Shown: piece after piece, positions 9,488 through 29,090 of the stretch
Layout of the letters: each line of letters opens with the position of its first letter
Numbering within the stretch: position 1 is the stretch's first letter
Assembly: GCF_928381705.1 (NCBI RefSeq)
Contig: NZ_CAKMSR010000004.1
Span: 62,001 to 126,000 of the forward strand
Direction of reading: 5' to 3'
DNA from: Rothia nasimurium
Lineage (GTDB): Bacteria; Actinomycetota; Actinomycetes; Actinomycetales; Micrococcaceae
DNA length: 64,000 nt
Position numbers and translations under genes: made by a program
Notes under the pieces: model-generated
Databases searched by the model: none
What the model was told of the DNA's origin: nothing
The model's input: the letters and a program-made list of their open reading frames with translations, nothing else

Positions 9488-10942
9488 ATGTCACAGAACT
9501 CATGGGAACCCACTCCCGATTCGTCGTCCGCTGATCGCACCGTTCCTATGAATCAGCAGCAGGTAGCGGCTTCTACCACGGGAGCCTCCAGCCAGGATGA
9601 TCCCACCGTCGCTTTCGCTGCCCAGCAGGCTCCTGCCGCCGGGGCCTACGCCTACGCAGGTGCTGCCCCGGGGGCTGCTTACACCGGTGATTACGCGGCG
9701 GTACCCGTGCAGCCCGAGCAGAACAAGGGCAAGCACGCAACCCGCACCGTCCTTGCAGCTGCAGCTATTGCTGCCCTCCTAGGCGGGGGTATTGGCGGTG
9801 GGGTAGTAGCCGCAACTTCCACCGGTTCAGCCTCAAGCATCACAACCGCCAGCTCGGGCACCACCATCGTCAATAACACCGACTCCGTCAACGCTGTCAC
9901 TGCTGCTGCTGCCAAGGCAACCCCCTCCACTGTCACCATCGCAGCCACCTCATCGAACGCGTCCGGCTCCGGCTCCGGCGTTATTCTCGATGCTGAGGGG
10001 CACATCCTCACCAACACCCACGTGGTCACCCTCGACGGGGCCACCGCTAACGCCGCCATTGAAGTTCAGCTGGCCGATGGTAGCGTTCGCTCCGCTACCG
10101 TGGTCGGCACCGACCCCACCAGCGACCTGGCCGTCATTAAGCTCGATAGCACCAGTGGCCTGACCCTCACACCCGCTACCCTGGGCGACTCTGATGCCCT
10201 GAATGTTGGCGATACCACCGTAGCCATCGGTGCACCCCTGGGACTGTCTAACACCGTGACCACCGGTATCGTCTCGAACCTGGTACGAACAATCGAGGTA
10301 GCCTCATCGGCAGCCGATGAATCCACTAGCGACTCCGGCAGCAGCACCACCGACCCCTTCGGCAGCTCGCCCTTCCAGTTTGAGATTCCCGGCCAGCAGA
10401 GTCAGAGCACCACCTCAAGCTCCACTATCGCCATCAACGTCATCCAGACCGATGCTGCGGTAAACCCCGGCAACTCCGGCGGCGCCCTCATCAACTCCAA
10501 CGGTGAAGTAATCGGTATCAACGTGGCTATTGCCTCCACCGACTCATCCAGCACCTCCACCAGCGGCAACATCGGTGTTGGCTTCGCCATCCCCATCAAC
10601 TACGCCAAGCGGGTAGCCCAGGAAATCATCGATAACGGCTCAGCCACCCACGGCATGCTAGGGGCTACCGTCTCCACCTCACCCGCCAACAACGACTCAT
10701 CCGAAGCCTTCGGCGACGGTGCCCTGATTCAGGAAGTCACCAGCGGTGGAGCCGCCGAAGCCGCCGGCCTGAAGCCAGGCGATGTTGTCACCGCCGTTGA
10801 CGGGCGCAGCATCAGCGAGGCAGCCGAGCTGACCGCCGCCGTCCGCCAGGCAGCAGCAGGTGACACCGTCACCCTCACCGTTGAGCGCAACGGCTCAACC
10901 CAGCAGGTCACCGTGACCCTGGGAGATGCCGCTAACAGCTAG
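9488..10942 (+). CDS. HtrA/DegP-like membrane-anchored serine protease with PDZ domain
   Basis: 484 residues. The N-terminal part (1-85) is cytoplasmic, low complexity and Ala/Gln/Pro-rich. One transmembrane helix lies at about 87-110. Then comes a trypsin-like protease domain with catalytic His178 (TNTHVV), Asp213 (SDLAVIKL) and Ser330 (GNSGGAL), and a C-terminal PDZ domain (about 390-475, GLKPGDVVTAVDGRSI). A Ser/Thr-rich insert at about 272-312 interrupts the protease fold between Asp and Ser. Such proteases degrade misfolded exported proteins or act in regulated proteolysis at the envelope. It is divergent from the TPM gene and is followed immediately by a structured repeat that also looks like its terminator. 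DegP, DegQ or PepD naming is not distinguishable from sequence alone. Confidence 0.92.
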   Translation: MSQNSWEPTPDSSSADRTVPMNQQQVAASTTGASSQDDPTVAFAAQQAPAAGAYAYAGAAPGAAYTGDYAAVPVQPEQNKGKHATRTVLAAAAIAALLGGGIGGGVVAATSTGSASSITTASSGTTIVNNTDSVNAVTAAAAKATPSTVTIAATSSNASGSGSGVILDAEGHILTNTHVVTLDGATANAAIEVQLADGSVRSATVVGTDPTSDLAVIKLDSTSGLTLTPATLGDSDALNVGDTTVAIGAPLGLSNTVTTGIVSNLVRTIEVASSAADESTSDSGSSTTDPFGSSPFQFEIPGQQSQSTTSSSTIAINVIQTDAAVNPGNSGGALINSNGEVIGINVAIASTDSSSTSTSGNIGVGFAIPINYAKRVAQEIIDNGSATHGMLGATVSTSPANNDSSEAFGDGALIQEVTSGGAAEAAGLKPGDVVTAVDGRSISEAAELTAAVRQAAAGDTVTLTVERNGSTQQVTVTLGDAANS

Positions 10943-10950
10943 AGACATCA

Positions 10951-11066
10951 AAGGCTCTGCAGGCTCACGCTCGCTGTCGACCCTCTTGCCTGGTTCGCTT
11001 CGCTCACGAGGCAATTCACGCCAGCCCCGGGCCAACAGCTTCGCGGTGAGTCTGCAGAGCCTTTTT
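10951..11066 (+). repeat. Dispersed structured repeat, copy 1; also a terminator
   Basis: Outer arms AAGGCTCTGCAGGCTCAC (10951-10968) and GTGAGTCTGCAGAGCCTT (11046-11063) pair over 18 bp with one G:T wobble and are followed by T's. Inside are the shared box CGACCCTCT, an inner stem TTGCCT/AGGCAA around a GGTTCGCTTCGCTCAC loop, and the shared box ATTCACGCCAGCCCCGGGCC. Two other copies keep both boxes but have different, still paired, stems. The element lies between convergent genes (htrA-like and trmL). Confidence 0.85.
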
Positions 11067-11070
11067 GTGA

Positions 11071-11538
11071 CTAAATCACCCCACCGGCAAAGCCGTGCTG
11101 GCGCCAGGCCTCAAACACCGCAATCGAGGCGCTGTTGGCCAGGTTGAGGGAGCGGCGGCCCGGAACCATCGGAATCTTGACCCGCTGGGTAACGTGCGGG
11201 TCGTTCTGTACATGCTCGGGCAGCCCGACCGACTCGGGGCCGAACATGAGTACGTCCCCCTCTTGGTAGTCAATATCAGCGAAGTTAGTGGTGGCCGTGG
11301 TGGTAAAAGCAAAGACGCGGGCCGGGGCTAGGGCCTCCCAAGCGTCCTCGAGGGTCTCGTGCACGGTCATAACTGCCAGGTCATGGTAGTCGAGGCCAGC
11401 CCGGCGCAGGTTAGCGTCCTCAAAGTTAAAACCTAGGGGCTTGACCAGGTGCAGCTCTGCGCCGGTGATAGCTGCAAGGCGAATCGCGTTACCGGTATTG
11501 CCGGGAATTTCAGGAGTATAAAAAAGAATCTTGAACAC
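11071..11538 (-). CDS. trmL: tRNA (cytidine(34)-2'-O)-methyltransferase
   Basis: A small SPOUT methyltransferase of 155 residues, the usual TrmL length. It begins FKILFYTPEIPGNTGNAIRL, the diagnostic TrmL N terminus (PxIPxNTGxxxR), and continues ITGAELHLVKPLGF. The knot forming the AdoMet site is visible as LMFGPESVGLPEHV and RVKIPMVPGRRSLNLANSA. The enzyme methylates the ribose of nucleotide 34 in certain Leu tRNAs, stabilising wobble decoding; it acts as a dimer in the cytosol. The start is GTG 11536-11538. It is convergent with the HtrA-like protease, with the structured repeat between them. Confidence 0.93.
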   Translation of the reverse strand: MFKILFYTPEIPGNTGNAIRLAAITGAELHLVKPLGFNFEDANLRRAGLDYHDLAVMTVHETLEDAWEALAPARVFAFTTTATTNFADIDYQEGDVLMFGPESVGLPEHVQNDPHVTQRVKIPMVPGRRSLNLANSASIAVFEAWRQHGFAGGVI

Positions 11539-11684
11539 CCCAACAGTTTACGCGGGCTGCACGAAATAAAAGCGCGCTGGGAGTCGTTGAGAGGGTGAAG
11601 CAGTCCATAGCCTGCCCCAAGAGCGGGGGAGTATGATGGAAGGCTGAATTGTTTTGACCAATCGCCACGGAAAGGCCAGCGCCC

Positions 11685-12917
11685 ATGCCCCGGGTCTACC
11701 TGGACCACGCCGCCACTACCCCCATGCTCCCTCAGGCTATCGAAGCCGTGGTGGAGCAGATGAAAATTGGCGGCAACCCCTCGTCCCTGCATTCAGCGGG
11801 CCGCTCTGCTCGCGCTACCGTCGAGTACGCCCGCGAGCGCATTGCCCGGGTAGCCGGCTGCGATGCCGCTGAAATTATCTTTACCTCCGGTGGTACCGAG
11901 GCTGATAACCTGGCGATCAAGGGGCTCTACTGGAAACGCCGCGAAGCCAACCCGGCTGCGACCCGCATTGTCGTTTCGGGCATCGAGCACCACGCCGTGG
12001 GCGATGCCGTTGAGTGGCTGCAGGCCCATGAGGGGGCCGAGGTGAGCTGGGTAGCTCCGGACGCTAGCGGTGTAGTCAGTGCCGAAGCGGTTCGGCAGGC
12101 GGTGGGCAAGAGCCCAGAGACGGTTGCGCTGGTGACCGTCATGTGGGCCAACAACGAGGTGGGCACCGTGCAGCCCGTCGCAGAAATCGCTGCGGTAGCT
12201 GCAGAATTTGGAATTCCCTTTCACACGGATGCCGTCCAGGCTTTTGGCACCCTGCCGGTGAACTTCAAGGAATCCGGCGCCACCACCATGGCCATCTCAG
12301 CCCACAAAATTGGCGGGCCCATGGGAATAGGCGCCCTCATCGCCACCCGCAGCGCCCAGCTCATGCCCGTACTCCACGGCGGCGGGCAGGAACGCTCCGT
12401 GCGCTCAGGAACCATTGACGCCGCCTCTATCGCGGGCTTTGGCGCAGCAGCTGCCGAAGCAGGGCAGAACCTACTCGCCGAAGCAGGCCGCCAGGCCGAA
12501 TTGCGAGACCGCCTGATTGAGGGCGTCCTCGATGCTGTCCCCGAAGCCCAGCTGCGCGGGGCCGCCCCCGAAAGCGCCCAGGACCGAGCAGCCGGCATCT
12601 TCAGCCGCCTGCCCGGCAATGCCCACTTCACCTTCCCCGGCTGCGAGGGCGATTCCCTGCTCTTCCTGCTCGATATGGCAGGGGTGGAGTCATCCACCGG
12701 CTCAGCCTGTAACGCAGGGGTGCCCCGTCCCTCCCACGTCCTGCTGGCTATGGGGCTGAGCGAGGACGAGGCCCGCGGAGCCCAGCGCTTCACCCTGGGG
12801 CACACCAGCACCGAGGACGACGTCACCGCTCTACTGGACGCCCTGCCCGGCGCCTGGGCCCAAGCCAAAAAGGCGGGCATGGCGGGCCACGCCCCGGACG
12901 CCGCCCGCTGGAACTAG
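11685..12917 (+). CDS. Cysteine desulfurase (NifS/IscS type)
   Basis: PLP enzyme that takes sulfur from cysteine as a persulfide, giving alanine. 410 residues from ATG 11685 (MPRVYLDHAATTPM). The PLP lysine is in ISAHKIGGPMG (K208). The mobile-loop cysteine that carries the persulfide is in GSACNAG (C342). FTSGGTEADNLAI and NNEVGTVQP are family signatures. It lies upstream of mnmA on the same strand, separated only by a structured repeat. This arrangement makes it the likely sulfur donor for tRNA thiolation by MnmA, as IscS is in E. coli; a role in Fe-S assembly is also possible. No IscU/SufU scaffold gene is adjacent. Confidence 0.92.
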   Translation: MPRVYLDHAATTPMLPQAIEAVVEQMKIGGNPSSLHSAGRSARATVEYARERIARVAGCDAAEIIFTSGGTEADNLAIKGLYWKRREANPAATRIVVSGIEHHAVGDAVEWLQAHEGAEVSWVAPDASGVVSAEAVRQAVGKSPETVALVTVMWANNEVGTVQPVAEIAAVAAEFGIPFHTDAVQAFGTLPVNFKESGATTMAISAHKIGGPMGIGALIATRSAQLMPVLHGGGQERSVRSGTIDAASIAGFGAAAAEAGQNLLAEAGRQAELRDRLIEGVLDAVPEAQLRGAAPESAQDRAAGIFSRLPGNAHFTFPGCEGDSLLFLLDMAGVESSTGSACNAGVPRPSHVLLAMGLSEDEARGAQRFTLGHTSTEDDVTALLDALPGAWAQAKKAGMAGHAPDAARWN

Positions 12918-12935
12918 TTCGATAAGGCGGTAGTC

Positions 12936-13030
12936 CGGGCAGGCACCTGGCCGCGACCCTCTCGGGACTCGCGCGGGGCGCTCGCCCGATTCACGCCAGC
13001 CCCGAGCCAGCGGCCAGGGCTGCCTGCCCG
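12936..13030 (+). repeat. Dispersed structured repeat, copy 3 (between the desulfurase and mnmA)
   Basis: Outer arms CGGGCAGGCA and TGCCTGCCCG (12936-12945, 13021-13030) are perfect, with a further pairing CCTGGCCGC/GCGGCCAGG just inside. The boxes shared with the other copies are CGACCCTCTCG and ATTCACGCCAGCCCCGAGCC. The inner stem is TCGGG/CCCGA. No clear T run follows, so it is less obviously a terminator here. It lies in the spacer between two rightward genes of one pathway. Confidence 0.8.
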
Positions 13031-13078
13031 CCCCACCGCCCATCAACGTCAACGATTACTGGATATAGGACTTAAAAC

Positions 13079-14272
13079 ATGAAAATTCTTGCTGCTATGA
13101 GCGGTGGCGTGGATTCGGCCGTTGCCGCCGCCCGCGCCGTTGAGGCCGGCCACGAGGTGGTTGGCGTGCACCTGGCGCTCTCCCGCATGCCCGGCACCCT
13201 GCGTACCGGCTCCCGCGGCTGCTGCACTATCGAGGACTCCATGGACGCCCGCCGGGTCTGCGACCAGCTGGGGATCCCCTTCTACGTCTGGGACTTCTCC
13301 GAGCGGTTCAAGGAAGACGTGGTCGATGACTTTATCTCCGAGTACGAGCACGGCCGCACCCCTAACCCCTGCATGCGCTGCAACGAGAAAATCAAGTTCG
13401 CTGCCCTGCTGGAGAAGGCCGTGGCCCTGGGCTTTGACGCGGTAGTGACCGGCCACTACGCCAAGGTCATTACGGACGAGAACGGCAACCGGGAGCTGCA
13501 CCGCGCAGCGACCTGGGCCAAGGATCAGTCCTATGTTCTGGGTGTGCTGACCCACGAGCAGCTCAAGCACGCCTGGTTCCCCCTGGCCGATACCCCCTCC
13601 AAGGACGAGGTGCGCGCGGAGGCCGCCGAACGCGGCTTCTCGGTAGCTAAGAAGCCCGACTCTTACGACATCTGCTTTATTCCCGAGGGCGATACCCGCG
13701 AGTGGCTCGAAGAGCACATCGACATGACCGAGGGCGATATCAAGGATACGGACGGACGCGTGCTCGGCAAGCACCGCGGCTCCCAGGCCTTTACCGTGGG
13801 ACAGCGCAAGGGCCTGGCTATTGGGCACCCTGCCCCCGACGGTAAGCCCCGCTTCGTGCTAGAAATCCGCCCCAAGACCAACGAGGTCATCGTGGGCGGT
13901 AAGGACCTGCTCGAAATTGACGAGATTCGCGGTATCCGCGAAACCTGGGCCGGTCTACCCGTAGAAGAAGCTGCAGCCTTCCTATCCGAAGAGCCCGTAG
14001 AAGGTGCCCGTTCGGCGTCCTTTGACGTCACCGCCCAGGTACGAGCCCACGCAGACCCCGTTCCCTCGACCGCCCACCTGGAATGGGTAATTGACGATGA
14101 AGCCGCTGAGCCCGGTGCCCTGCGCCTGGAAACCGTGGTGCGCCTGCACGAGAAACTGCGCGGTGTGGCTCCTGGCCAGACCATGGTGATTTACCAGGGC
14201 ACCCGCGTGCTGGGCCAGTCCACCATCGCCCGCGCCTACAGCCTCGACCGAGCTGACATCACCGCTAACTAG
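13079..14272 (+). CDS. mnmA: tRNA-specific 2-thiouridylase
   Basis: Adenylates and thiolates U34 of Lys, Glu and Gln tRNAs (s2U34) with sulfur relayed from a cysteine desulfurase. 397 residues. The PP-loop ATP motif SGGVDS lies at residues 8-13. The two catalytic cysteines are in NPCMRCN (C98) and DSYDICF (C199). GHYAKV and [10 protein letters not shown] are tRNA/ATP-site motifs, and the C-terminal beta-barrel begins after about residue 240. Compared with the E. coli enzyme there is an insertion in the C-terminal part (about residues 290-335), common in actinobacteria. Start ATG 13079 gives the canonical [13 protein letters not shown]. Context with the upstream desulfurase supports the function. 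Confidence 0.95.
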
Positions 14273-28718: not shown

Positions 28719-28849
28719 GAGTTCCTCCTTCACGGGGTGCGAGGCCCCATTGCGATGTATCACAGATACCTAACACTACTAAGCATACATATAGACCGGT
28801 GGGTTCAGCCACTTTATTGCACCACCAGCGCAAAATTACTTTGATGCTG

Positions 28850-28875
28850 GGGAATAAACTCGCCTCTCTGTCGTT
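28850..28875 (+). promoter_or_regulatory. Candidate SigH-dependent promoter upstream of sigH
   Basis: GGGAAT (28850-28855) and GTT (28873-28875) are separated by 17 bp (GGAATA ... CGTT), matching the SigH/SigR -35 GGAAY and -10 GTT pattern known from mycobacteria and Streptomyces. It points toward sigH, 216 bp downstream, and would make the sigma factor autoregulated. Structured repeat copy 2 would lie inside the leader. Confidence 0.55.
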
Positions 28876-28904
28876 ACACATGACGAGATTTGTTCAAGGT
28901 TTCT

Positions 28905-28998
28905 CAGGCTCACACTCGCTGTCGACCCTCTCGCTGGTTCGCTAGCGCTCACAAGCGATTCACGCCAGCCCCGAGCCAACAGCTTCGCTGTGAGCCTG
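28905..28998 (+). repeat. Dispersed structured repeat, copy 2 (sigH leader)
   Basis: Outer arms CAGGCTCACA and TGTGAGCCTG (28905-28914, 28989-28998) are perfect. The shared boxes CGACCCTCTCG and ATTCACGCCAGCCCCGAGCC are present. The inner stem is TCGCT/AGCGA around GGTTCGCTAGCGCTCACA. No T run follows. The element lies about 90 bp before the sigH start and after the candidate SigH promoter. Confidence 0.8.
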
Positions 28999-29090
28999 TT
29001 CAACCAGTACAGGCTTCGTTGTACTCGGCGCGTAGCTACGCCCATTGGCAGGTACAGTAAGACAAAAGACCACAGCACACCTGGAGGGAA

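Follow-up and report, generated by a model that had tools for sequence, protein, structure and literature searches.

A dispersed family of REP-like hairpin repeats with conserved internal boxes in Rothia

Background

Small intergenic palindromes that occur in tens of copies, lie at gene 3' ends and fold in a strand-specific manner are known as REP, BIME and REPIN sequences with RAYT (TnpA-REP), and the element described here resembles them in all these respects. It is unlike them in being conserved inside and variable in its arms, in its size (about 100-190 bp, with internal boxes) and in the lack of a Y1 match in the Rothia genome that carries it. The mobile GC clusters, or double hairpin elements, of fungal mitochondria are nested hairpins that spread, and the enzyme responsible is not known. 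The Rothia element likewise has hairpins nested in hairpins, but it lies on a bacterial chromosome and has a conserved internal loop and tandem G·A at its stem junctions. With the structured RNAs of Rfam it shares conserved loops and covarying stems; unlike them, it has no match there and shows a strand bias that is independent of neighbouring transcription.

Arthrobacter is a genus of the family to which Rothia belongs. REP counts are tabulated for Arthrobacter livingstonensis in PMC12306157, which gave no match to the term Rothia. The title of PMC3733652 gives GTAG or CGTC as the tag at the foot of the REP hairpin, and the terms Rothia, Micrococc-, Arthrobacter and Actinobacteria had no match in that source. 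The literature searched, which lay mostly outside subscription journals, held no published description of the element.

Results and discussion

Three copies in the window

The window (the whole stretch of 64,000 nucleotides of Rothia nasimurium that was analysed, C4:62001-126000) contains three copies of the element. A preliminary description had reported three intergenic copies with two shared boxes, and this was borne out. Box 2 (20 bases, up to three mismatches) has exactly three matches in the window, at 11014, 12989 and 28958, all on the plus strand, against a mean of 0.02 in shuffled sequence, where three were never reached in any shuffle; box 1 is matched exactly at each copy, at 10978, 12954 and 28923. 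Taken alone and with up to one mismatch, box 1 shows no excess over chance in the window (25 matches, 20 expected). The inner and outer stems quoted in that description were found in place, and open frames and Pfam confirmed the intergenic position of all three copies, which are composed as follows.

10950..11066, folding strand minus: copy 1, full hairpin, between convergent neighbours
10978..10986, plus strand: box 1 of copy 1, CGACCCTCT (minus strand AGAGGGUCG)
10987..11013, minus strand: inner hairpin of copy 1, with variable stem, tandem G·A and GC..GC cap
11014..11033, plus strand: box 2 of copy 1, ATTCACGCCAGCCCCGGGCC (the minus strand contains GGGGCUGGCGUGAAU)
12935..13030, folding strand minus: copy 2, in the interval between an iscS-like gene and mnmA
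12954..12962, plus strand: box 1 of copy 2
12989..13008, plus strand: box 2 of copy 2
28905..28998, folding strand minus: copy 3, in a divergent interval 5' of a sigma-70 gene
28923..28931, plus strand: box 1 of copy 3
28958..28977, plus strand: box 2 of copy 3

According to open frames and Pfam, copy 1 has the gene for a trypsin/PDZ protease (+) on one side and that for a SpoU methylase (-) on the other, and its plus strand terminates in a T-tract, as a terminator would. Copy 2 follows an aminotransferase-V (iscS-like) gene (+) and precedes mnmA (+); its folding strand is antisense to both of these tandem neighbours, and its arms share no relationship with those of copies 1 or 3. Copy 3 lies inside a divergent interval (window 28764-29090) upstream of the sigma-70 gene (+), on the other side of which is a frame on the minus strand with a weak DoxX match (23.4 bits, Pfam cut-off 23.6). 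The common orientation reported for the copies holds in the window only, as box 2 has 23 forward and 14 reverse matches genome-wide. Just as the preliminary description recognised no known family, a search of the whole window against Rfam returned two tRNAs only and nothing at the elements, and a search of 10850-13150 (copies 1 and 2) with E up to 5 returned two weak unrelated matches.

Structure of the element

Read 5' to 3' on the minus strand, the element consists of an outer stem, stem P1, GGCUCGGGGCUGGCGUGAAU, stem P2, tandem G·A and a GC-capped hairpin, followed by P2', AGAGGGUC, P1' and the second strand of the outer stem. By our own reading of the folds, the conserved internal loop is asymmetric, with about 15 nt on one side and 3 nt on the other. 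The AGAGGG of box 1 is invariant in 40 of 40 aligned copies, a motif already included in the pattern by which the copies were selected.

Conserved boxes with covarying stems, as claimed earlier, were supported by several measures. In the alignment of 40 copies, 87.1% of cells pair and 10 of the 14 modelled pairs show a double change. The covariation score, for a structure set by hand on alignment A2 (outer helix paired in 75.8% of cells), is 0.335, against 0.145 in shuffled alignments and at most 0.085 when the partner is slid by 1-3 columns. Because the arms vary in length, RNAalifold, run on a longer alignment, recovered part of the structure only: 16 pairs, of which 12 show double changes, at -11.6 kcal/mol. 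All 76 copies examined, which come from several Rothia genomes, keep at least 20 cross pairs between their arms, so that no added copy was found whose stems had ceased to pair; a false hit, L119, was excluded from the 76-copy fold, mismatch and arm sets.

Two types of outer arm can be distinguished. Type A copies have related arms, and some of them extend to an end stem, GGGGCTTATTCA/TGAATAAGCCCC; the arms of type B copies are mostly unrelated to each other. A rough sorting by the motif AGCGAA, in which related copies were included, gave type B arms a near-random median identity of 0.43 (random, 0.38), with at least five type-A-like copies, including window copy 1, placed in type B. Re-sorting yielded 35 type A and 41 type B copies, or 15 and 35 after removal of redundancy. 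In the 35 non-redundant type B copies the arms pair over 24.5 bp (minimum 20) with their own partners and over 12.0 bp (sd 7.6, maximum 26) in 1190 swapped combinations; the corresponding values for non-redundant type A are 24.3 and 18.7 bp. The swapped-arm control thus agrees with the covariation score.

Further cores are also found. The marker motif of a type C core is also dispersed, with 12 matches in the own genome (G000) and presence in 12 of 35 genomes, each of which also has the main core, and this core occupies the outer unit of the main one, as in L356 with its GGGGCTTATTCA end. A type D variant (GGGGCTGGCGATGAAT..GAATGGTTGCGGG) with arms of its own is seen in L310, L311 and L312, followed by a partial inverted self-copy. 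The 3' half (box 2 and 3' arm) is repeated in tandem at L026:1400-1690, L029:1480-1660 and L085 (minus strand), and some of the repeats have a shorter loop without the inner hairpin.

Distribution in Rothia and beyond

The own genome (2.6 Mb) has 37 matches to box 2 and none to the reversed-pattern control. A covariance model of 76 positions, built on 40 copies, finds 75 matches in it at E<=0.01 and 69 at E<=0.001, among which the window holds only the three known copies. The element is therefore a real dispersed family, as first proposed, and extends well past the copies from which it was described. Among 35 Rothia genomes, 20 are positive at E<=0.001 with 1 to 87 copies each, three of them carrying just 1 to 3.

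A family-level search with stricter filters, in which up to 16 candidates were scored per genome, matched 17 of 295 genomes: 15 Rothia, the own genome included, and two weak cases in genus g12. One of these two, at L182:1470-1620, is a diverged single copy, assigned to G237 by score, with its core enclosed in a long outer hairpin. This copy looks real, and suggests that the family predates Rothia or was transferred. At the order level 6 of 396 genomes matched, three of them outside the family and judged to be chance. The order-level matches in G613, G633 and G642 were rejected as probable chance matches, since their single-sequence folds, judged by eye, have no long regular outer hairpin.

Strand specificity

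The preliminary description read the plus strand, and on this point it probably has to be revised: it is the complement that keeps the fold. In all 76 copies the minus strand gives the more stable fold (mean -71.5 kcal/mol, plus strand -57.3), and the near-invariant symmetrical TC/TC mismatch of the inner hairpin becomes tandem G·A on it; at this junction a loose GA..GA pattern is present in 75 of the 76. Mismatches were also counted independently of wobble, by forbidding G-U pairs and scoring isolated arm mismatches between Watson-Crick pairs. On the minus strand the 76 copies, related ones included, have 67 G·T, 7 A·C and 23 other mismatches, and the plus-strand fold gives the mirror result (6 G·T, 61 A·C). 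Per copy, 49 have G·T only, 1 has A·C only, 5 have both and 21 neither, and the ratio is alike in the outer (35:4) and inner (32:3) zones. The p value for these ungrouped copies (about 1e-13) is overstated because the copies are related; in the non-redundant sets G·T:A·C is 14:1 for 15 type A copies (p 0.001) and 26:5 for 35 type B copies (p 0.0002).

The bias also holds where both flanking genes are antisense to the folding strand (15:3 at 27 distinct sites, p 0.008; 24:3 in 41 copies, related ones included), as it does at 37 convergent sites (17:3). The constraint is therefore independent of neighbouring transcription and is not accounted for by read-through RNA. An unbiased scan for 2x2 internal loops in 220 kb of the own genome and 200 kb of G287 found no excess of GA/GA or TC/TC. 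Strict counts of the two were 1 and 0 (own) and 0 and 0 (G287), and loose counts 4 and 3 (own) and 0 and 2 (G287), the loose reversed-sequence control giving 2 and 5 and 3 and 2, respectively. The GA/GA motif thus gives no genome-wide signal, in a scan too weak to detect the few copies in these stretches.

Homologous copies were compared within 21 of 29 groups, the rest being dropped for divergent arms. Watson-Crick to G·T differences number 25 against 6 from Watson-Crick to A·C (p 0.0009), alongside 18 Watson-Crick/other and 8 G·T/other columns. Of all the results, this grouped comparison argues most strongly against a repeat that is purely passive, and the bias in it could reflect either a function maintained by continuing selection in place or gene conversion among copies. 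Compensatory double changes between homologous copies were 0 in 639 pairs, which speaks against selection in place; compensation is therefore shown solely between different copies.

Gene context and turnover

Using a home-made gene caller, the context of 34 of the 75 own-genome matches was covered: 16 are convergent, 12 tandem, 2 divergent and 4 have one neighbour missing. The folding strand is antisense in 10 of the tandem copies and sense in 2. In all genomes together, 132 copies (related ones included) comprise 50 convergent, 41 tandem antisense, 16 tandem sense, 8 divergent and 17 incomplete cases; the 95 distinct sites comprise 37, 27, 11, 6 and 14, respectively. The preference of tandem sites for an antisense folding strand (27 against 11, p 0.014) is a bias that our best explanation leaves unaccounted for. 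Regarding replication, there is no leading or lagging strand preference among 51 matches in one closed genome (23 against 28, counted by hand with the origin assumed at base 1).

Copies differ among strains that diverge by about 5-6%. Synteny was followed in stretches of 180-220 kb from each of six genomes, with every homologous copy counted. For 31 of these 34 copies the site could be located in another genome, and in 25 of these cases at least one relative lacks the core concerned, absence meaning that the box motif is missing and thus including sites with a different core. Many absences are deletions, and the losses look like short-homology deletions. Among the sites listed, four kinds of change occur: loss of the core, loss of the whole hairpin, exchange of the core, and nesting of a hairpin in the cap, the last at about 42 kb of C4 in the own genome (compared with G214 and G184). 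The empty sites listed show by eye no clear target-site duplication, and the AGCGA direct repeat is internal rather than at the ends. The outer arms may have arisen as inverted copies of the flank: at the one locus considered, the 3' arm is single-copy in three relatives, but these carry another element there.

At the site of copy 1, the full core is also found in G258, an outer hairpin without core in G287, G184 and G214, and in G173 the whole hairpin is gone and has taken the methylase gene's original stop codon with it. The outer hairpin might be an ancestral terminator that the core entered, but the remnants keep type A inner arm letters; one AGCGA repeat is retained in G287 and G184, and G214 reads AGCGC. 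Loss by slippage is therefore at least as likely as a core jumping in. The interval of copy 2 contains partial copies, duplications and an element in the opposite orientation in relatives. Duplicated gene ends and partial copies are seen between iscS and mnmA in L205, L206 and L201 (G132, G250 and G296), with a second element of opposite orientation and different arms in L205 and L206; these rearrangements look like template switching at hairpins. At the site of copy 3, G173 has a different, type C, core of about 140 nt inside matching arms, and the site is empty with similar sequence in G287, G214, G258 and G184. As these four include the outgroup, copy 3 is a gain or import in the own genome and G173, probably a recent gain common to both. 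Two of the four empty genomes fall outside the cluster of the own genome, G173, G258 and G287, and, as the inner-strain tree is nearly star-like, the own genome and G173 need not have the gain by common descent. This probable recent gain may have altered the promoter region of the sigma-70 gene.

Several element-free Rothia gene ends carry long, near-perfect hairpins of about 14-20 bp whose unrelated arms differ between close relatives (L317, L318 and L320; also, where G258 has its copy at about 260 kb of C2, the corresponding sites of G184 and G214). Rothia terminators themselves seem to turn over fast.

Search for a mobilizing enzyme

Three families were searched for in the 35 Rothia genomes. 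Y1 transposase (PF01797) was matched in 3 genomes and is missing from the own genome and from 17 of the 20 that carry the element; reverse transcriptase, sought as a sign of a group II intron or other retroelement, was matched in 4 (3 over the cut-off) and IS110 Transposase_20 (PF02371) in 3, neither of them in the own genome. No transposase is linked to the element among these three families. In the six stretches of 180-220 kb, the end motif never accompanied a transposase from which it could derive; a single match, which looks like chance, falls in a frame resembling an IS3 transposase. A constant tag at the hairpin foot was not seen either, as the 40-copy alignment A1 has no invariant column outside the boxes and type B arms are near random. 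Lacking both the tag and the Y1 transposase, the element is not a member of the REP/RAYT group. MITEs are resembled in the GGGGCTTATTCA/TGAATAAGCCCC end stem of some type A copies and in presence or absence between strains; unlike MITEs, the element showed no related autonomous element in the six stretches searched, and its type B has no constant ends.

Origin of the element

The elements form a new family of REP-like hairpin repeats: they are dispersed, covary between copies, are biased to one folding strand, are present or absent between relatives and exchange cores. Among the three options of the preliminary description (non-coding RNA, REP-like repeat, protein-binding hairpin), the REP-like repeat fits best. 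We favour, at a probability of about 0.62, a non-autonomous, hairpin-forming dispersed repeat of a Rothia clade, of the REP/MITE kind and not itself REP, whose copying or movement proceeds through one folded strand. The unit would spread in the form of single-stranded DNA or RNA, or template switching would copy it in that form, so that selection would see the pairing of that strand. Copies lie mostly behind genes, and their cores are exchanged or nested within existing hairpins; type B arms probably represent either the terminator hairpin of the host gene or what an older element left as its arms. Very stable motifs of single-stranded DNA include tandem 5'-PyGAPu-3' steps and GCGAAGC, and these would suit a folded DNA intermediate; because tandem G·A steps are stable in RNA as well, the two kinds of intermediate are not separated. 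A more tentative proposal is that of mobile hairpin modules without a dedicated transposase, in which one folded strand inserts or template-switches into the loops of other hairpins and arms and cores are interchangeable. The targets would be host terminators or the modules themselves, and nested hairpins would be joined by tandem G·A steps.

Other explanations account for parts of the data. A structured RNA of the minus strand (ligand-binding, ribozyme or protein-binding), with the boxes as an active internal loop, would fit the asymmetric loop, the tandem G·A, the wobble-tolerant covarying stems and the G·T bias between homologous copies. It is nevertheless unlikely, given that the bias persists at sites antisense to both neighbours, that copies are dispensable and present or absent at homologous sites, that cores are replaced in relatives, that Rfam has no match and that homologous copies lack double compensatory changes; an ordinary non-coding RNA, one of the options first put forward, is thus disfavoured, and so is a cis-regulatory RNA. 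That a plus-strand gene ends 27-172 nt from the core in 29 of 34 own copies, that copy 1 has a T-tract and that several core-free relatives have long unrelated hairpins at the matching gene end would suit ordinary host terminators that share an apical domain by chance, the domain having spread through recombination between terminators. Terminator use of some copies is indeed a competing reason for the upkeep of the stems. But invariant boxes are unnecessary for termination, the terminator's own transcript (plus strand) is the less well folding strand, and copy 3 is among those flanked by divergent genes (2 of 34 own copies, 6 of 95 sites), which makes this origin quite unlikely. A REP/REPIN-type element that depends on a Y1 (RAYT) transposase for its movement agrees in size, copy number, intergenic hairpins and single-strand specificity; with PF01797 unmatched in most positive genomes and no constant tag beside the arms, we regard it as very improbable. 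Least probable of all is a site kept for a host protein of replication or repair that recognises folded single-stranded DNA or RNA: the one-strand bias and invariant boxes would be expected, but the copies are dispensable and show no leading or lagging preference.

Conclusions

Covariation and wobble are insufficient alone to prove a functional RNA, and strand and gene context need to be checked. With tens of copies per genome that vary between strains, the Rothia family offers a natural experiment in the origin, exchange of parts and disappearance of small palindromic repeats. Should it turn out to need no transposase, the family would show that hairpins can spread in bacteria via structure alone.
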